Assembly: GCF_900143215.1 (NCBI RefSeq)
Contig: NZ_FRDM01000017.1
Location: 1-64,000 of the forward strand
Direction: 5' to 3'
Length of the DNA: 64,000 bases
Source of the DNA: Geodermatophilus obscurus
GTDB taxonomy: Bacteria; Actinomycetota; Actinomycetes; Mycobacteriales; Geodermatophilaceae
Part shown: piece by piece, positions 28,347 to 37,193 of the stretch
How positions within the stretch are numbered: the stretch's first letter is position 1
Layout of the letters: every line of letters begins with the position of its first letter
The notes under the pieces: model-generated
The model's input: the letters and a program-made list of their open reading frames with translations, nothing else
Told to the model about the DNA's origin: nothing
Databases searched by the model: none
Position numbers and translations under genes: made by a program

Positions 28347-29450
28347 GTGTGCTGGACCGCGCTGTCGGAGCTGGTGCCGCTCTACCCGCTCTACGCGCTG
28401 CTGTTCCTCGACACCGGGCTCTCCGCCGCGGAGATCTCGCTGCTGTTCGCCGCCTGGTCGGTCACCGCGGTGCTCACCGAGGTGCCGGCGGGCGCGCTGG
28501 CCGACCGGTGGTCCCGCCGCGGCGCGCTCGTCGCGGGCGGCGCCCTGGAGGCGGCCGCCTTCGTCGTCTGGACCGTCGCGCCGCAGACCACCGGCTTCCT
28601 CGCCGGCTTCGTCGTCTGGGGCGTGGCCGGCGCGCTGGTCTCCGGCACCGTCGAGGCGCTGGTCCACGACGGCCTGGCCGAGGTGGGCGCCGAGGGGTCC
28701 TTCGCCCGGGTCAACGGCTGGATGACGTCGGCCGAGCTGCTGGTGCAGATCCCGACCGCGGCCGTGGCCGCCGGTCTGTACGCCCTCGGCGGCTACGCGC
28801 TGGTGGGCTGGGCCAGCGCCGCGGTGTGCCTCGCTTGGGCGGCGCTGGCCCTGCGGTTCCCCGAGACGCCGCGGGAGTCCGACGGCGAGTCCCTGCTCGG
28901 CACCCTGCGCAGCGGCGTGGCCGAGGCCGTCCGCGTTCCCGGGCTGCGGCTCACCGTGCTCGCGGTCGCGCTGGTCGGTGGGCTCGACGCGGTGGAGGAG
29001 TACTTCCCGGTGCTCGCCGGCGACCGCGGGGTGCCGACGGTCGCCGTCCCGGTCGCCGTCCTGGGCATCACGCTGGCCGGGGCGCTCGGCGCCGCGCTGG
29101 GCGGCCGGGCCGACCGGCTGCCCGACCGCGCGCTGTCCGGGCTGCTGCTCCTCTCGGGCCTGCTGCTCGGGGCGGTGGCCGTCGTCCCCGGCCCGGCGGC
29201 GCTGGTGCTCGTGGCGGTCGCCTACGCCCTCTACCTGGCGGTGCTGGTGGTGGCCGAGGCGCGGCTGCAGGAGCGCATCGACAGCACCCGCCGGGCGACG
29301 GTCACCTCGGTCGCGGGCCTCGGCACCGAGCTGGCCGCCCTGCTGGTGTTCGCCGCCTGGGCGCTGGGTGGCGTCGTCGCGGTGGCGGTGCTCGTGGTCG
29401 CCGTCGTCCCCGTGGTGGCAGCGGGCCTGCGCCGGACGCCGGTCAGCTGA
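28347..29450 (+). CDS. MFS transporter
   Basis: A drug- or metabolite-efflux-type major facilitator, 367 residues as annotated, with about 12 hydrophobic helices and the loop 2-3 signature GALADRWSRRGAL. The first helix (ELVPLYPLYALLFLDTGLS) starts almost at the GTG used. Upstream, a GTG at 28278 with a good leaderless box (TACGGT, 28265-28270) lies in the same frame but hits a TGA at codon 5 (28290-28292). Translation therefore must start later, at GTG 28347 or CTG 28311, or the gene carries a nonsense mutation. The substrate is unknown. It overlaps the convergent yczE gene by 8 bp. Confidence 0.8.
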   Translation: MCWTALSELVPLYPLYALLFLDTGLSAAEISLLFAAWSVTAVLTEVPAGALADRWSRRGALVAGGALEAAAFVVWTVAPQTTGFLAGFVVWGVAGALVSGTVEALVHDGLAEVGAEGSFARVNGWMTSAELLVQIPTAAVAAGLYALGGYALVGWASAAVCLAWAALALRFPETPRESDGESLLGTLRSGVAEAVRVPGLRLTVLAVALVGGLDAVEEYFPVLAGDRGVPTVAVPVAVLGITLAGALGAALGGRADRLPDRALSGLLLLSGLLLGAVAVVPGPAALVLVAVAYALYLAVLVVAEARLQERIDSTRRATVTSVAGLGTELAALLVFAAWALGGVVAVAVLVVAVVPVVAAGLRRTPVS

Positions 29451-30066
29451 CGCGGACCGGCGCGCGGGGGAGGTCCACCGACAGCCGGGGCAGGAGCGCG
29501 TGCACCAGCGGGCCGATGGCCAGCGCGTACAGCACGGTGGCGACGCCCAGCGTGCCGCCGAGGAGCCAGCCGAGGCCGACGACCAGGACCTCGATCGAGG
29601 TGCGCACCAGCCGGACCGAGCGCCCGGTGCGGCGCACCAGCCCGGTCATCAGCCCGTCGCGCGGCCCCGGGCCCAGGTGGACCCCGATGTAGGCGGCGGT
29701 CGCGACGGCGTTGAGCAGGATGCCGGCGGGGACGAGCGCGACGCGGACGGCGAGGGACGACGGCTCGGGCAGCACGGCGAGGACGGCGTCCAGCACCAGG
29801 CCGATGACGACCACGTTGCTGACCGTGCCGAGCCCCGGCCGTTCGCGCAGCGGGGCCCACGCCAGCAGCACCAGCGCGCCGACGACGATGGTGACCACCC
29901 CGAGGGACCAGCCGAGCTGCCGCGCCAGGCCCTGGTGCAGCACGTCCCACGGCATGACCCCGAGGCCCGAGCGGACGAGCAGGGCCATCGAGAGCCCGTA
30001 GAGCGCCAGGCCCGCGTAGAGCTGGACGAGGCGTCGGGCCGGCCGGGCGGTCAGCAGCGGGGGCAT
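29443..30066 (-). CDS. yczE: YczE/YitT-family membrane protein
   Basis: A 207-residue integral membrane protein with five or six hydrophobic helices. The family-typical start is RLVQLYAGLALYGLSMALLV, followed by GLGVMPWDVLHQGLA. YczE-type proteins have unknown biochemical function and are usually encoded divergently from a MocR-type (GntR-aminotransferase) regulator. Here only a fragment of such a regulator remains on the other side of the start codon. The ATG at 30066 forms part of a GCATGC palindrome shared with that fragment. Confidence 0.85.
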   Translation of the reverse strand: MPPLLTARPARRLVQLYAGLALYGLSMALLVRSGLGVMPWDVLHQGLARQLGWSLGVVTIVVGALVLLAWAPLRERPGLGTVSNVVVIGLVLDAVLAVLPEPSSLAVRVALVPAGILLNAVATAAYIGVHLGPGPRDGLMTGLVRRTGRSVRLVRTSIEVLVVGLGWLLGGTLGVATVLYALAIGPLVHALLPRLSVDLPRAPVRVS

Positions 30067-30264: not shown

Positions 30265-31019
30265 CAGCCGGTGCCCCGGGCCGCGCGTGCCCGTCGCAGG
30301 TAGGCCGACGGCGTCGTGCCGGTGACGGCCCGGAAGTCACGGCTGAAGTGCGACTGGTCGAACCAGCCCAGGGACGCCGCGAGGCCCGCCAGGTCGCCGA
30401 CCGCGCCGGCGTCGATCGTCGCCGCGGCGTCCTGCAGGCGGTACCGGGCGAGCACCGCCTTGGGGCTCAGCCCGACGTAGCCGGCGAACAGGTCCCGGTA
30501 CGCCGCGGGCGGGTCCGGGGCCAGGAGGGCGAGGGCCGCGTCGAGCACCGCCGCGCGGGCGCCGTCGTCCTCGACGGCGAGCACCGCGTCGCGCAACCGG
30601 GCGGCGTCGAGGCCGAGCGCGGAGCCCAGCGGCGTCGCCGTGGCCCGGCCGGGCAGCCGGCCGCCGAAGGCGACCCAGCCACCCGGGCGGAACTTGGCCG
30701 CGGTCACCCGGCCGGTCCCGACGAGGTCGATGGTGAAGCGACGCGGGGTGACGCCGTGCACGAGGACGGCGGGCAGCGCGTGCCCGAACCGCGGCTCGGA
30801 GCCGGACTCCACCGACAGGTTCACGCTGGGGTGGCTGAGCACCTCGGAGCGGTGCGGCGGTCGGCCGGTCCGGTCCCACCGCACCGACCAGTACCGCTCG
30901 ACGAACGGGGCCAGCACCGGGGACACCGGGGCGTCGCGGCGCAGACCGGCCTCGCGGGCGGTCTCGGCCGGCCGCAGCAGGCCGCTCGCCGGACCTGTCG
31001 CGTTCCTCCAAGACGGCAC
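30264..31019 (-). CDS. AraC-family transcriptional regulator
   Basis: A 251-residue regulator with an N-terminal ligand-type domain (FVERYWSVRWDR, LVHGVTPRRFTIDLVGTG, FRPGGWVAFGG) and a C-terminal AraC double helix-turn-helix (YVGLSPKAVLARYRLQDAAA, LGWFDQSHFSRDFRAVTG, TPSAYLRRA). The GTG at 31019 is supported by a TAGGCT -10 box (minus strand, 31026-31031) 6 nt upstream, implying a leaderless mRNA. It is divergent from the VOC gene with only 27 bp between starts, so it probably controls that gene and itself. Confidence 0.9.
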   Translation of the reverse strand: MPSWRNATGPASGLLRPAETAREAGLRRDAPVSPVLAPFVERYWSVRWDRTGRPPHRSEVLSHPSVNLSVESGSEPRFGHALPAVLVHGVTPRRFTIDLVGTGRVTAAKFRPGGWVAFGGRLPGRATATPLGSALGLDAARLRDAVLAVEDDGARAAVLDAALALLAPDPPAAYRDLFAGYVGLSPKAVLARYRLQDAAATIDAGAVGDLAGLAASLGWFDQSHFSRDFRAVTGTTPSAYLRRARAARGTG

Positions 31020-31046
31020 GGCCGGAGCCTAGGCAGGCTCGGGGAC

Positions 31047-31526
31047 ATGGCGATCACGAACGGCCGTCCCGACGGCTGCACCACGCTGACCCCGTTCCTC
31101 GTCTGCTCGCCCGCGGCCGAGGCGATCCGCTTCTACGCCGACGTCTTCGGCGCCACCGTCGTCCAGCGGATGGACGGCCCCGACGGCACGGTCGTGCACG
31201 CGGAGCTCGACCTCGGCCTCGGCCGGTTGCAGCTCGGCGACCCCAACGACGCCTACGGGCTGGTGGCCCCGAGCGGGCAGGAGTCGGACCGGGTGAGCAG
31301 CTCCACCTGCGTCTACGTCGCCGACGTCGACGCGGTGTTCGCCCGCGCCGTCGAGCGCGGCGCCACGGTGCGCGAGGAGCCGGCCACCTTCGTCACCGGC
31401 GACCGCTTCGCCTCCGTCTACGACCCGTTCGGCCACCGCTGGGCGATCATGACGAAGGTCGAGGACGTCAGCCCCGAGGAGCAGGAGCGGCGTCTCGCCG
31501 AGTGGGCGGCGTCCGGCGCGCAGTGA
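31047..31526 (+). CDS. VOC-family (PhnB/glyoxalase-like) protein
   Basis: A 159-residue glyoxalase/bleomycin-resistance fold protein of the PhnB type (TPFLVCSPAAEAIRFYADVF, VHAELDLGLGRLQLGDP, YDPFGHRWAIMTKVEDVSPE). The family includes metal-dependent dioxygenases, isomerases and resistance proteins; this subgroup has no known activity. The ATG at 31047 is used. It is divergent from an AraC-type regulator, its probable controller. Confidence 0.9.
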   Translation: MAITNGRPDGCTTLTPFLVCSPAAEAIRFYADVFGATVVQRMDGPDGTVVHAELDLGLGRLQLGDPNDAYGLVAPSGQESDRVSSSTCVYVADVDAVFARAVERGATVREEPATFVTGDRFASVYDPFGHRWAIMTKVEDVSPEEQERRLAEWAASGAQ

Positions 31527-31664: not shown

Positions 31665-34493
31665 TCAGCGCCTGTGCGTCCTCCGGGCGACCCGGGCGGC
31701 GAAGACGCCGGCGGCGTGGCCGTTGTCGATGTTGCTCACCACCACGCCGGGCGCGGCCGAGTTCAGCATGGTCAGCAGCGCGCTGAACCCGCCGAAGGAG
31801 CCCGGCTGCCCGGTCGAGGTGGGAACGGCGACGACCGGCACGTCGGTGAGCACGCCGACCAGGCCGGCCAGCGAGGCGTCGAGCCCCGCGACGACGACCA
31901 GGCAGTCGACGTCCTCCGACAGCGCCCCGCCCGGCAGCCCGGCGCGGAACCGGCTGCCCCCGACGTCGTCCACCCGGACCACCGCGGTCCCCGTGACGCG
32001 GGCGGCGAAGGTGGCCTCGGCGGCCACCGCGAGGTCGCCGCCGGCCCCGCACAGCACGCCGATCCGACCGGCGGGCTCGGGCAGCGGCCCGACCGCCGCG
32101 GACATCGACGCCGCGTCGACCGTCGTGTAGGCGTCGTGCTCGCTGGCCAGCGCGACCAGCGTCTCGGCGGGAGCCCGCACGACGACGGCGGGCCGGTCCG
32201 GGAACTGCCGGCGCGCCTCGCGGACCAGGGCGAGCACCTGCTCGGTGCTGCGGCCGGTGCCCCAGATGACGTCGGGCTCGGCCGGCGTCCCGCGGGCCGG
32301 CGCGGCCGGTGGGGCAGCAGGCTCGGCGGGCGGTGCGGCGGCCGGCGGAACCGGCGCCAGGGCCGGCTCGGCGGAGCTGCCCAGGCCCAGCGGCGGATCG
32401 GCGGGCTCGACGAGGAGCGAGGCGAAGCCGCTGGTCACAGCGGTGGGGTCGGCCAGCAGGGAAGGCTGCACGGCAGGGACCCTAGGGGCCGCCGCGGACT
32501 CCTCCGGGGAGCCGGCGGCGGCCGTGTCGTCCCGGGAGGACCCGTCCGTCACAGCAGTCGCAGCCGGCCCGTACAGCGCGTCCGGCGGGCTCCCGGCGAC
32601 CCGCGTCTGGGTCACCGCCGACAGCCGGACGACCCGGTTCCGGCCGGTGCGCTTGGCGTCGTAGAGGACGCCGTCGGCGGCGGCGAACAGCGTGCGCCGG
32701 TCGTCGCCGCGGGTGGCCGAGGCGATGCCGACGCTGATCGTCACCGGCACGGGGAGCCCCCGTGCGGCCCAGTCGGTCCCCGCCACCGCGCGGCGGCAGC
32801 GTTCGAGCGCGTGTTCGGCCTGCTCGGCGGTGGTGTCGGGCAGCAGGACGACGAACTCGTCGCCGGCCCACCGGCAGACCTCGTCGGTGTCGCGGCACCC
32901 GGCCACCAGGATCTCGGCGACCCGGCGCAGGACGTCGTCGCCGCCCGCGTGGCCGACGGCGTCGTTGACCTCCTTGAACCGGTCGACGTCCACGACGGCC
33001 AGCGCCGCCGTCGTCCCGCCGCCCAGCAGCCCGTCGAGGGTCGCCTCGGCGTAGCGCCGGTTGGGCAGGTGGGTGAGCGGGTCCTCGTAGGCCTGCCGGC
33101 GCAGCTGCCCGGCGGCCCGCTCGGTCTCCAGCAGGCTCTTGCGCCGACCGAACAGCTCCACCCAGCGGGTGCGCCGCTCGTCGACCCGGTCCAGCTCGTC
33201 GGCCAGGTAGGCCTGCAGGTACGGCAGCGCCCGGCCGGCGTCGTCCAGCTCGGCGTGCAGGGTGCACAGCTCGCGCAACGCGGCCCGGCGCAGCCGCGGC
33301 AGGCCGTGCTCGGTGGCCGTGGCGAGCGCCAGGGCCAACTGCTCGTCGGCGCCACGGCCGTTCCCCTGCCGGCGCAGCGCGCGGCCCAGGGCGAGCAGCG
33401 CCGCGGCGTGCAGCGCCCGGTCACCGGCGGTGGTGGCGTGGACGGCGGCCCGCAGCGGTCCGACGGCCGCGGCGTGCTCGCCGAGGCCCACGAGCGCCCA
33501 GCCGTGCACCACCTGCGCGGCCAGGACCGCTTCGGCCGACTCCGGCGGGAGCAGGGTCAGTGCCTGCTCGGCCAGCGTGCGGGCCTCGGCGAAGTGCGGC
33601 CCGGCCGCGTCCGGCACGCCGTCGTCGAGCAGCGCCTCCCCGAGCTCGGCGCACAGCTCGCCCAGGGAGCTGGCGGCGCGGGCCACCAGGACGTCGGGAT
33701 CGCCGTCCTCCGGTCGCAGCGCCCCGGGGACCGCGGCGGCGGTCACCGCGGTCTCGTGCGCCCGCCGCTGGTAGTCCAGGGCCAGCGGCATCAGCTCGAG
33801 GTCGGCGAGCACGCCTGCGAGGTCGGTCAGGGTCCGCACCAGCAGCGCGGAGGGCGGCATCGCGGGGTCGAGCAGGCTGGCCGCCTCCACGGCCTCGTCC
33901 ATGGCGGCGTCGGTGCGGCGGGACAGCAGCTCGATGCGGGCGTGCCGGGCCAGGCCGGCGGCGCGCTGCAGCTCGTCCGCGGTGGCGTCGAAGGCGGCCT
34001 TCGCCGAGCGCACCAGCGCGATGGCCAGCGCCGCGGAGGAGGCGCGCGGGTCGCCGTCCTCGCTCGCGGGAGCGCCGTCGATCAGCTCGGCCACGCCGGC
34101 GTGCAGGTCCAGCGCGGGCGCCGCACCGGGGCCGGACGCGGGCTCCACCGGGTCGCCGACGAGGGTGAAGCCGGCCTGCCGCAAGCGGCGGACCAGCAGC
34201 TCGGCGCGCAGCGTGTCGGCCCAGGCCCGGCCCAGGTCGGCGGGACGGTCGGCGCCGCCGTCGCGCGGTGCGGGCGCCACGTAGGGGGAGTCGGTGCCGA
34301 CGTCGGCCAGCAGCTCCTCGGCGTCGTCGAGCTGCCAGTTGGACAGGGCGACGGTCACCCGGTGGTGCAGGGCTCCGGGAGGCACGAGCGCACTGTGCCC
34401 GCCGTCGTCAACGGAGTCGAGCACCGGGAGGGGGGCTCGCCGGGCGCCCGGTGCACTCCCGTCACAGCCGTCCCTCCCGGTCCGTGCCGTCAC
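31665..34493 (-). CDS. Helical-repeat/GGDEF diguanylate cyclase fused to a LarB-like domain
   Basis: A 942-residue cytosolic protein in four parts. Residues about 45-440 are helical, TPR-like (ALLALGRALRRQGNGRGADE). Residues about 468-620 are a GGDEF domain with DPLTHLPNRRY, VDVDRFKEVND and the active-site variant AGDEF near 545, which usually still makes c-di-GMP. A Pro/Ala linker follows to about 733. Residues about 735-942 resemble LarB (PurE-like; VVAGLDASLAGLVG, VPTSTGQPGSFGG, MLNS-APG, NIDNG), the NaAD carboxylase/hydrolase of nickel-pincer cofactor synthesis. The conserved LarB cysteine is alanine here (residue about 913, codon 31755-31757). The GTG start overlaps the stop of the upstream GGDEF gene (GTGA). 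A sensory role of the LarB-like part is inference. Confidence 0.88.
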   Translation of the reverse strand: MTARTGRDGCDGSAPGARRAPLPVLDSVDDGGHSALVPPGALHHRVTVALSNWQLDDAEELLADVGTDSPYVAPAPRDGGADRPADLGRAWADTLRAELLVRRLRQAGFTLVGDPVEPASGPGAAPALDLHAGVAELIDGAPASEDGDPRASSAALAIALVRSAKAAFDATADELQRAAGLARHARIELLSRRTDAAMDEAVEAASLLDPAMPPSALLVRTLTDLAGVLADLELMPLALDYQRRAHETAVTAAAVPGALRPEDGDPDVLVARAASSLGELCAELGEALLDDGVPDAAGPHFAEARTLAEQALTLLPPESAEAVLAAQVVHGWALVGLGEHAAAVGPLRAAVHATTAGDRALHAAALLALGRALRRQGNGRGADEQLALALATATEHGLPRLRRAALRELCTLHAELDDAGRALPYLQAYLADELDRVDERRTRWVELFGRRKSLLETERAAGQLRRQAYEDPLTHLPNRRYAEATLDGLLGGGTTAALAVVDVDRFKEVNDAVGHAGGDDVLRRVAEILVAGCRDTDEVCRWAGDEFVVLLPDTTAEQAEHALERCRRAVAGTDWAARGLPVPVTISVGIASATRGDDRRTLFAAADGVLYDAKRTGRNRVVRLSAVTQTRVAGSPPDALYGPAATAVTDGSSRDDTAAAGSPEESAAAPRVPAVQPSLLADPTAVTSGFASLLVEPADPPLGLGSSAEPALAPVPPAAAPPAEPAAPPAAPARGTPAEPDVIWGTGRSTEQVLALVREARRQFPDRPAVVVRAPAETLVALASEHDAYTTVDAASMSAAVGPLPEPAGRIGVLCGAGGDLAVAAEATFAARVTGTAVVRVDDVGGSRFRAGLPGGALSEDVDCLVVVAGLDASLAGLVGVLTDVPVVAVPTSTGQPGSFGGFSALLTMLNSAAPGVVVSNIDNGHAAGVFAARVARRTHRR

Positions 34494-36145
34494 GGTGCGT
34501 CGTCCCCGCCGCGGCCGCCGTGGGCGCGCACCCGGTTGCGTCCGCCGCGCTTGGCGGTGAACAGGTGCAGGTCGGCGGTGTCGAACAGCGACCGCCAGCC
34601 CAGCGGCTCGTCCTCGACCGCCGCCGGGGCGGTGGCCACGCCGATGCTCACCGTCACCGGCTCGGGCAGCTGCAGGTCACCCCAGTGGGCGCCGGCGACG
34701 GCGGCGCGCAGCCGGTCGACGGCGGCCAGCGCCTGGGCCTCGGTCGCCGTCGGGAGGACGACGAGGAACTCGTCGCCGGCCCACCGGTACACCTCGTCAC
34801 CGGAGCGGCTGTGCTCCCGCAGCAGCTCGGCCACCCGGCGCAGCACCTCGTCGCCGTGCGAGTGGGACGTGTCGTCGTTGACCGCCTTGAACCGGTCGAT
34901 GTCGACGACGGCCAACGACACCGGTTCGGCGCCCACGCGCATGCCGCCCAGCCGGCGCTCGGCGCTGCGCCGGTTGCCCAGCCCGGTGAGCGGGTCCTCC
35001 AGCGCGACCCGGCGCAGGTGAGCGGTCTGCCGCTCGGCCTCCCGCAGCCGGCTGCGCCGCACGAACATCTCCGCCCACAGCTCCCGGCCACGGGCGTGCG
35101 CGCGGCCGGTGTCGGCGCGGTAGGCCTCCAGCCAGTGCAGCGCCTCGGCCGGGCGGCCCATCGCCGCGGTGCCCTGACCCAGCTCCAGCAGGCACTGGCG
35201 GTAGCGGCGGCGGTCACCGGTGGCGGCGAAGGCGCCGGCGGCGTCGACCAGCAGGTCGGTGGCCTCGGCGTCGTGCCCGCCGCCGGACCGGGTGCGGGCC
35301 AGCCGGGACAGCAGCCGGGCGAGCACCAGGTCGGCGTAGCCGCGCAGCCAGGTCCCGCCGTCCCGGTGCACCCGCTTGTGCGCGCGGCGCATCGGGCCGA
35401 GTGCGTCCTCGACCTCGCCGCAGCCGGCCATCGCCCACGCCTGGACGACGTCGAGCAGGTCCTGGTCGGCGGGCTCGGCCTCCCAGTCCAGGGCGCGGGC
35501 GGCCTCCGCGAGGTCCACCGCCGCCCCGGCCAGCTCCCGGGTGGGCTCGACCTGGCCTCGGCGGTGCAGGGTCTGCGCCAGCTCGGCGTGCTGCTGGGCG
35601 CACAGCTGCAGCAGTCGCCAGCGGTCGGCGACGCCCGGCAGCTGGTCGGCCACCCGGGAGCCCTGCAGCGCCTGGGCGACGGCGAGCTCCTCCAGGTCGA
35701 GGGCGCCCAGCGCGAGCGACAGCCACAGGTGGGCCTGGTGCAGGGCGCGCGAGGGGCCGTCGGCCGCTGCCGTCTCGGCCAGCAGGCCGGCGTCGATGGC
35801 CAGCACCATCGCCGCGTCGACGTGGTCGGCGGCCACCTCGACGGCGGCCAGGTAGGCCAGCGTCAGTGCGGTCTGCGCGCCCGGCAGGCACCGGCCCAGG
35901 GCGTCGCGGGCGGCGGACACCCCGGCCGCCGCGGCCTCGCGGTCGCCGTCGACCAGGGCGCGGCGGGCGGCCAGGGCGTGCCGCCAGGCGACCCAGCGCG
36001 GCTCGGTCGCGGCGTCCAGGGCCTCGATCGCGCGATCGTGCTCGGCGGCGAAGGCAGCAGGGTCGTCCCGGTCGCTGACGGACAGCAGACGCCAGAGCGC
36101 ATCGTCGAGGTCACCCTCGGTGAGGCGCGCGGGGCCGGGGGTCAC
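34490..36145 (-). CDS. Helical-repeat/GGDEF diguanylate cyclase
   Basis: A 551-residue probable c-di-GMP synthase. It has a long TPR-like helical N-terminus (to about residue 370; ALHWLEAYRADTGRAHARG) and a GGDEF domain (DPLTGLGNRRS, VDIDRFKAVNDD, AGDEFLVVLP near residue 455, SIGVATAP). No membrane segment is seen, so it is cytosolic. The GTG at 36145 is preferred because GGAGGG precedes it closely; an upstream TTG overlaps that site. It is the tandem paralogue of the following gene, which has the same order of parts plus a LarB-like tail. The 4-bp overlap indicates coupled expression. Confidence 0.92.
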   Translation of the reverse strand: MTPGPARLTEGDLDDALWRLLSVSDRDDPAAFAAEHDRAIEALDAATEPRWVAWRHALAARRALVDGDREAAAAGVSAARDALGRCLPGAQTALTLAYLAAVEVAADHVDAAMVLAIDAGLLAETAAADGPSRALHQAHLWLSLALGALDLEELAVAQALQGSRVADQLPGVADRWRLLQLCAQQHAELAQTLHRRGQVEPTRELAGAAVDLAEAARALDWEAEPADQDLLDVVQAWAMAGCGEVEDALGPMRRAHKRVHRDGGTWLRGYADLVLARLLSRLARTRSGGGHDAEATDLLVDAAGAFAATGDRRRYRQCLLELGQGTAAMGRPAEALHWLEAYRADTGRAHARGRELWAEMFVRRSRLREAERQTAHLRRVALEDPLTGLGNRRSAERRLGGMRVGAEPVSLAVVDIDRFKAVNDDTSHSHGDEVLRRVAELLREHSRSGDEVYRWAGDEFLVVLPTATEAQALAAVDRLRAAVAGAHWGDLQLPEPVTVSIGVATAPAAVEDEPLGWRSLFDTADLHLFTAKRGGRNRVRAHGGRGGDDAP

Positions 36146-36257
36146 GCATCCCTCCAACCACGGTGTCCGGCCGCTGCACGGCTCCGGGTCCTGCGACAGC
36201 GTGGCAGCTCCCCCGGGTGGGGCACCCGCCCGTCCCCGACCGCACTACCCTCGTCGG

Positions 36258-37193
36258 GTGCCTGGGACGCCTCCGACGCGGTACGCCTATCTCGGACCCG
36301 AGGGTACCTTCGCCGAAGCGGCCCTGATCAGCGCCGTCGCCCCGGCCGAGGGCTCCCGGATCCCCTCCCCGGGGGTGCCGGCGGCGCTGGCCGCCGTCCG
36401 TTCGGGGGACGCCGACGCCGCGCTCGTGCCGCTGGAGAACTCCGTCGAGGGCTCCGTGCCGGCCACCATGGACGGCCTGGCCGAGGGCGACCCGCTGCTG
36501 ATCACCCGCGAGGTGTTCCTGGCGCCCTCCTTCGTCCTCGCCGCCCGCCCGGGGACGACGCTGTCCGACGTGCGCTCGGTGGCCAGCCACCCGCACGCGC
36601 TGGCGCAGACCGCCGGCCGGCTGGCCCGGCTGCTGCCCGGCGTCGTCCCGCTGCCGGCCACCTCCACCGCCGAGGCCGCGCGGCAGGTGGCGGCCGGTGA
36701 GCACGACGCCGCGGTGTGCGCGCCCATCGCCGCCGAGCGGTACGGGCTCACCGCGCTGGCCGACGACGTCGCCGACCGCTCCGGTGCGGTGACCCGGTTC
36801 GTGCTCGTCGCGCCCCCCGGCCCGCTGCCCGCGCCGACGGGCAACGACAAGACCTCGCTGGTCGCCGTCGTCGGGGACCGCACGGGGGCGCTGCTGGACC
36901 TGCTCCGCGAGTTCGCCGTCCGCGAGATCAGCCTGACCCGCATCGAGTCGCGGCCGACGCGCGAGCGGCTGGGCGTCTACTCCTTCTCCCTCGACTGCGA
37001 GGGACACGCCGCCGACGCCCGCGTGGGGGAGGCGCTCGCCGCGCTGCACCGGGTCTGCGACGAGCTGCGCTTCCTCGGCTCCTACCCGCGCGCCGACGGC
37101 CGGGAGAACAGGCCGGTGACGCCGGTGTCGACCGACGCGGCGTTCGGCGAGGCCGCCGGCTGGCTGGAGCGGGTGCGCGCCGGCCACGTCTGA
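36258..37193 (+). CDS. pheA: Prephenate dehydratase
   Basis: Converts prephenate to phenylpyruvate in phenylalanine synthesis. The 311 residues have the dehydratase domain (YLGPEGTFAEAAL at the N-terminus, VPLENSVEGSV near residue 57, and the catalytic TRF in AVTRFVLV near 185) and a C-terminal ACT regulatory domain with the phenylalanine-binding ESRPTRERLGVYSF near 235. A tail of about 30 residues follows. The GTG at 36258 has a TACCCT box at 36246-36251, 6 nt upstream, so it is probably leaderless. It is divergent from the GGDEF pair. Confidence 0.95.
   Translation: MPGTPPTRYAYLGPEGTFAEAALISAVAPAEGSRIPSPGVPAALAAVRSGDADAALVPLENSVEGSVPATMDGLAEGDPLLITREVFLAPSFVLAARPGTTLSDVRSVASHPHALAQTAGRLARLLPGVVPLPATSTAEAARQVAAGEHDAAVCAPIAAERYGLTALADDVADRSGAVTRFVLVAPPGPLPAPTGNDKTSLVAVVGDRTGALLDLLREFAVREISLTRIESRPTRERLGVYSFSLDCEGHAADARVGEALAALHRVCDELRFLGSYPRADGRENRPVTPVSTDAAFGEAAGWLERVRAGHV

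Follow-up and report, generated by a model that had tools for sequence, protein, structure and literature searches.

A Diguanylate Cyclase of the Geodermatophilaceae Fused to a LarB-like Domain That Lacks the Catalytic Cysteine

Why should a diguanylate cyclase, a maker of cyclic di-GMP (c-di-GMP), end in a relative of LarB, an enzyme of the nickel-pincer nucleotide (NPN) pathway, from which the catalytic cysteine is missing? The question is raised by a gene in the first 64,000 nucleotides of contig NZ_FRDM01000017.1 of Geodermatophilus obscurus (hereafter the window). An initial annotation, made from the sequence alone, had read there a single frame joining a helical repeat region, a GGDEF domain, a Pro/Ala linker and a LarB-like domain without its cysteine. 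This holds: the gene (31665..34493, minus strand) is one uninterrupted open frame of 942 codons with a GTG start, encoding 942 amino acids. The fusion is real, conserved and family-wide, and as a multi-domain diguanylate cyclase it is of a known kind; its LarB-derived part would be a new kind of regulatory domain, presumably a receptor or an assembler. No account of a LarB-GGDEF fusion was found in the full-text literature (open-licence PubMed Central), and we consider it likely that the protein is a diguanylate cyclase carrying, at its C terminus, a regulatory pseudoenzyme domain derived from LarB.

The fusion gene and its disarmed domain

The C-terminal domain (residues 740–938; 31680..32276, on the minus strand like every part of the gene) has the LarB fold, as first annotated, by profile match, alignment, structure model and fold matches. 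The NCBIfam LarB profile is covered from position 12 to 208 of 209 with 136.4 bits, under the equivalog cut-off of 175, and two other fusions reach 177–179 bits. The purE equivalog gives only 23.5 bits against a cut-off of 149.6, and the Pfam AIR carboxylase family (PF00731) matches residues 859–938 with 37.6 bits (cut-off 30).

Several features set the old active site apart from that of LarB. First, Ala913 (codon GCC, 31755..31757) aligns with Cys221 of L. plantarum LarB, which we take to be the catalytic, adduct-forming residue, confirming the alanine first read at this codon. Cysteine occupies this position in 58 of 58 standalone LarBs and in 0 of 168 fusion domains; the loss is thus conserved across homologues although the replacement is not, being alanine in 145/168 and serine or threonine in 22/168. 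Second, LarB Ser127 is replaced by Gly819 (32037..32039), and serine is found here in 0/168 fusion domains. Ser127 is alanine in the deposited LarB variants 8soq, 8stc and 8std, from which we infer that it is catalytic in LarB, and the natural changes of Ser127 to Gly or Ala and of Cys221 to Ala resemble the laboratory S127A variant in the deposited LarB complexes. Third, the N-terminal LarB segment is missing, as annotated: its DxxRxxRTG motif is present in 0/49 fusion rows and 43/43 standalone rows, counts in which a few places enter twice. Fourth, LarB K57 is lost in 168/168 fusion domains (the domain described here has arginine), T79, R159, Y204, F234 and G235 are also changed in nearly all fusions, and the LarB-conserved V154 and G156 are replaced too, the pocket being judged from sequence alignment. 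Finally, other positions are strongly kept, including PTSxG (891–895), D820, E826 and DNG (923–925) at 96–100%, and the last-helix residues A928, G929, A932, A933, R934 and R937, each at 168/168; a new near-invariant arginine, R848 (165/168), lies in the loop standing where LarB has AGxHR. Cys864, within a DC[LIV]V pattern, was considered as a new catalytic cysteine and rejected, the pattern also being present in most standalone LarBs compared.

Since all fusions compared have lost both Cys and Ser, there is good support for reading the domain as a disarmed LarB attached to a c-di-GMP synthase. The domain might instead have kept an altered catalysis, such as dinucleotide hydrolysis without Cys-dependent carboxylation, by which the protein would degrade or clear its own signal. 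PMC9283937 describes LarB itself as both a carboxylase and a hydrolase, and the serine or threonine at the Cys221 position of some fusions could be read in the same way, but Ser127 and K57 are gone from every fusion domain and alanine is the commonest residue at 913; we regard this alternative as improbable.

The GGDEF domain (residues 468–620; 32634..33092) scores 132 bits against a curated Pfam cut-off of 23.8 and has Foldseek matches to solved diguanylate cyclases. Its active-site motif is the AGDEF variant originally reported (residues 543–547; 32853..32867), with AGDEF in 98 and AGDEY in 22 of 120 listed relatives, and an RxxD motif (RDTD, residues 534–537; 32883..32894), at what we take to be the place of the inhibitory I-site, is found in 120/120. 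A DxxxFKxxND-type pattern is matched in 117/120. With these motifs intact the cyclase is probably active. The window's genome has 29 GGDEF matches over the cut-off, and c-di-GMP signalling is credible in the Geodermatophilaceae because PMC8325347 reports RsiG, an anti-sigma factor that binds c-di-GMP, in its twin-motif form in 16/16 species.

Upstream of the GGDEF domain lies a helical region with a helix leading into it (approximately residues 34–455; 33129..34394). We call it TPR-like as a label only, the Pfam TPR_MalT model scoring 29 bits, under its gathering score of 45. The full-length structure model has helices across residues 149–447 but is weak (predicted local distance difference test, pLDDT, 68.0; predicted template modelling score, pTM, 0.49), and the Foldseek matches listed for it are GGDEF-containing chains, which give the TPR-like region no fold assignment. 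The Pro/Ala linker (residues 624–739; 32277..32624) has pLDDT <50 and is predicted to be disordered.

Distribution and ancestry of the locus

The fusion is not an assembly artefact or a frameshift joining two genes. A LarB-like domain and a GGDEF motif are present in one chain in 120/120 listed database proteins (the search admitted proteins of ~520–1650 residues, favouring fused forms), and the same order recurs in many genomes. Named relatives listed belong to Geodermatophilus, Blastococcus, Modestobacter and Trujillonella, with Klenkia among the partial ones; Geodermatophilus ruber and Blastococcus litoris are among the named genomes that carry the gene. Short LarB-like database proteins similar to the fusion domain also exist, most of those listed being from short contigs; two, of 306–309 residues, are from Blastococcus.

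Within the Geodermatophilaceae, a fusion-type LarB domain is listed in 100/112 genomes, and G107 adds one. Among good genomes (at least 90% complete), 91/96 have the fusion, counted as a listed match of the fusion-domain profile minus nine unfused cases; the others are four genomes whose larB is unfused (G070, G072, G073, G074) and G080, in which the domain has no match (G097, 72% complete, is scored neither with nor without). In 11 of the 100 fusion genomes the open frame around the LarB domain is shorter than 850 codons. Seven of these were inspected: four are cut by contig ends (G095, G098, G008, G081), G032 has both parts in one frame, and two (G047, G091) carry GGDEF and LarB in different frames. 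Outside the family no fusion appears among the matches listed. In the order set of 249 genomes, ~38 of which belong to the family, the frames of the listed outside matches do not exceed 668 codons; listed rows from 396 genomes of the phylum reach at most 801 codons outside the window's genome. Six of the longer cases that were fetched (G486, G556 and G389 of the phylum set; G185, G203 and G219 of the order set) have LarB without adjoining TPR-like/GGDEF homology, and larC adjoins LarB in 5/6. The architecture is therefore not a widespread one, as judged from the order and phylum matches listed.

The genomic setting points to the source of the domain. In the window, the divergent gene pheA (prephenate dehydratase; 36120..37193, plus strand) is followed by DGC1 (34490..36157, minus strand), a tandem paralogue with a TPR-like region and a GGDEF domain but no LarB part, whose stop shares 4 bases with the GTG start of the fusion gene; next comes a frame at the place where relatives have larC (30348–31526, plus strand, flanked by the fusion gene and an AraC-type regulator), which we take to encode a VOC-family protein. 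In most of the other genomes examined the order is pheA, DGC1 and fusion gene, with larC next in many of them. An unfused larB with larC behind it takes the pheA-side position in genus g7 of the family and in further families of the same order (the g6 contig stops short of pheA). Of 41 fusion loci, retrieved with flanks of at most 1.5 kb, 26 have larC directly behind the fusion gene, and so the earlier statement that no larC is nearby is right for G. obscurus but does not extend to the family.

Both trees agree with this arrangement. In the LarC tree, the larC genes behind fusions (32 rows) and behind larB of the pheA type (10 rows) form one clade (100/100), from which the larC of a second locus in the window's genome, on contig C48, falls apart; among the ten loci labelled pheA type, L075 ends before the pheA position, and in L082 and L084 3–4 kb separate pheA and larB. 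A first LarB tree lacked an outgroup. In a second, which takes its root from LarBs elsewhere in the phylum, the fusion clade (100/100; stem 1.52) falls within a group (86/95) that also holds 10/11 of the pheA-type LarBs, L181 being the one outside. The working larB of the same genome and the larB-larE type of other genomes also lie outside this group; support for the sister of the fusion clade is 87/76, with a long stem. Because the LarB and LarC trees tie the fusion to the pheA / larB-larC locus, the captured gene was most likely the ancestral larB of that locus and not a stray copy. That the fusion locus is the old pheA / larB-larC locus is new here and could not be seen by the initial annotation. 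This larB most likely became the tail of the tandem TPR-like/GGDEF gene in an ancestor of the core Geodermatophilaceae; it lost the N-terminal segment, the catalytic cysteine and Ser127 and changed much on the stem branch.

Two further observations concern the neighbourhood. A 207-codon frame in the window (29443–30066, minus strand) has zero Pfam matches and is 78–81% identical in loci L085, L087, L093, L096 and L186, where it lies 3′ of larC or of the fusion gene; it may be a further member of the fusion neighbourhood. An extra GGDEF gene is present near the downstream GDT1 gene in several relatives (L090, 13670–14131; L093, 4206–4673; L097, 12842–13309; and similar cases).

Retention with and without the nickel-pincer pathway

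The window's genome has its own NPN genes elsewhere. At contig C48 (199405–217410) lie larE (199405), larA (215237), larB (216047) and larC (216916), this larC being of the other lineage noted above. On the window's contig no larC, no second larB and no larE were seen over the cut-off among the matches listed, which bears out the earlier remark that larE is not nearby, with the set on C48 as an amendment to it; two weak larE-model matches of this genome were left without contig assignment. Across the family, taking a canonical LarB to be an NCBIfam LarB match of at least 208 bits and tallying LarB, LarC and LarE among the matches listed, another larB of the Cys type is present in 56 good fusion genomes. 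A canonical LarB is accompanied by LarE in the good genomes (n=96), with only a partial LarE match (70.9 bits) in G100. The fusion occurs with neither canonical LarB nor LarE in 34/96; 28 of these have no larC, five a diverged larC and one (G057) an ordinary larC. The diverged but open larC genes, each behind the fusion, are those of loci L089, L090, L091, L175 and L176 (genomes G002, G013, G018, G011 and G015). In many genomes (L086, G031:C30; by coordinates G027, G087 and others) larE has the working larB as its neighbour while larC lies elsewhere, and so their NPN genes are split over two loci.

Could the fused domain still serve the NPN pathway as a LarB with an alternative mechanism? The presence of larC 3′ of the fusion gene in many genomes, and its retention in G057 and five others where the fusion is the only LarB-like domain, would be consistent with this. 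The catalytic residues, however, are absent. Moreover, if the domain made pyridinium-3,5-biscarboxylic acid mononucleotide (P2CMN), genomes with LarE and the fusion as sole LarB-like domain might be expected, and none is found among the 96 good genomes (LarE in 0 of the 34 with the fusion as sole LarB-like domain, though joint deletion is possible). We consider this explanation scarcely credible.

Ratios of nonsynonymous to synonymous substitution (dN/dS) were estimated by the simple Nei-Gojobori method for chosen close pairs in GC-rich DNA, and the values are relative. They are 0.047–0.167 for the LarB-like domain (16 close pairs), 0.017–0.200 for the GGDEF domain (15 pairs) and 0.25–1.1 for the linker. 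Four pairs without nickel-pincer genes give 0.055–0.088 for the LarB-like domain, which is under purifying selection in the close pairs tested, by this sequence measure, also where the pathway has gone. For larC, dN/dS is 0.33–0.39 in the five pairs that keep it without larB and larE, as against 0.16–0.27 in ten other pairs (two involving G057); constraint on the diverged larC thus appears relaxed, not gone, and in two of these five pairs the fused domain itself stands at 0.15–0.16. A vestigial tail, that is, a functionless in-frame leftover of larB, would account for the two genomes with GGDEF and LarB out of frame and for the diverged or missing copies in a few others, but not for a domain dN/dS below 0.17 in 16/16 pairs against the much higher linker values, nor for the many residues that are invariant family-wide; it is very improbable. 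The disarmed domain has been retained: the fusion stays where canonical LarB and LarE are both absent, and since the capture purifying selection would have kept the domain even without the pathway.

A possible regulatory role and comparison with known systems

GGDEF domains act in pairs, and their output can therefore be set by a C-terminal domain through multimerisation or through a change of shape on ligand binding. We propose that the protein receives two inputs, one through the TPR-like region and the other through the LarB-like domain, the latter binding a small nucleotide-like ligand in what remains of the PurE/LarB pocket, imposing a PurE/LarB-type multimer, or both; ligand or multimer would then set the pairing of the GGDEF domains and hence c-di-GMP output. 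Given a pseudoenzyme, we put the chance that the domain responds to a ligand at about even, and an assembly function alone is rather less probable. The retained loops and conserved replacements, above all Arg848, fit an altered-specificity ligand site better than a plain scaffold. Nonetheless, with LarB K57, T79, R159, Y204, F234 and G235 replaced, the domain may bind another ligand or may serve only to assemble the protein. Sensing of nicotinic acid adenine dinucleotide (NaAD) or NAD is possible from the sequence, but that fusion and catalytic loss turned the enzyme into a receptor for a pyridine dinucleotide, NaAD or a near relative, which sets c-di-GMP synthesis, is a tentative suggestion.

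A rival that overlaps with the multimer half of this proposal holds that the domain is a scaffold only, kept for a PurE/LarB-type multimer that clusters the GGDEF domains, the old active site being an empty relic. Cys221, Ser127, K57, R159 and Y204 are all lost, the fold and the invariant last helix are kept, LarB forms an octamer, and a PurE entry (3oow) is titled octameric. On the other side, PTSxG, D820, E826, DNG and R848 would be dispensable in a scaffold unless they hold the fold, and we find a scaffold alone rather unlikely.

Several points weigh against a regulatory pseudoenzyme. In several pairs the dN/dS of the LarB-like domain is some times above that of the GGDEF domain. Ligand binding is no given, since the eight LarB-conserved residues listed above, V154 and G156 among them, are replaced, and confidence in the domain model is lower at two loops (domain residues 111–130 and 161–170; block means 64–75). 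The fused domain is strongly diverged in G005 (L087), G019, G020 (L185) and G107 (L094), the domains of L094, L087 and L185 being 54–57% identical to that of the window, possibly through decay; with its absence from G080, this indicates that the domain is not indispensable. Lastly, larB and larE are often neighbours (e.g. G031, G027), and their joint absence may reflect one deletion, which weakens the case that the fused domain cannot replace LarB.

In a family of soil and rock bacteria, the fusion suggests a new control of the c-di-GMP signal. To our knowledge the inputs of most diguanylate cyclases are unknown; here the input is directly testable because the domain's ancestor has solved structures and the list of candidate ligands is short. 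A NaAD receptor, if that is what the domain is, would couple the c-di-GMP programme of an entire actinobacterial family to NAD salvage or to nickel-pincer status. The locus would also show plainly how an enzyme can turn into a signalling pseudoenzyme, with the arrangement before fusion, the fusion itself, further working larB copies and pathway-free lineages all extant today. There is a warning for annotation as well: pieces of the domain are annotated in the database as AIR carboxylase or NCAIR mutase (PurE)-related protein, and the domain could be miscounted as LarB.

Compared with known systems, the domain is closest to LarB (PDB 7mj0–7mj2, 8soq, 8stc, 8std), with the same fold over ~200 residues at 36–38% identity, the PTSxG and DNG motifs shared and a locus of common descent; it differs in lacking Cys221, Ser127 and DxxRxxRTG, in the change of K57 to arginine, in many further pocket changes and in its position behind a GGDEF domain. 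PurE / AIR carboxylase (PF00731) is far more distant. DGC1 has the TPR-like region and GGDEF domain in common with the fusion (40% identity across 466 positions) but stops after the GGDEF domain. PleD, DgcB and SiaD resemble the fusion in AGDE(F/Y), the RxxD site and the helix into GGDEF, whereas none of the titles of the 50 listed GGDEF fold matches names a C-terminal LarB domain such as the fusion carries.
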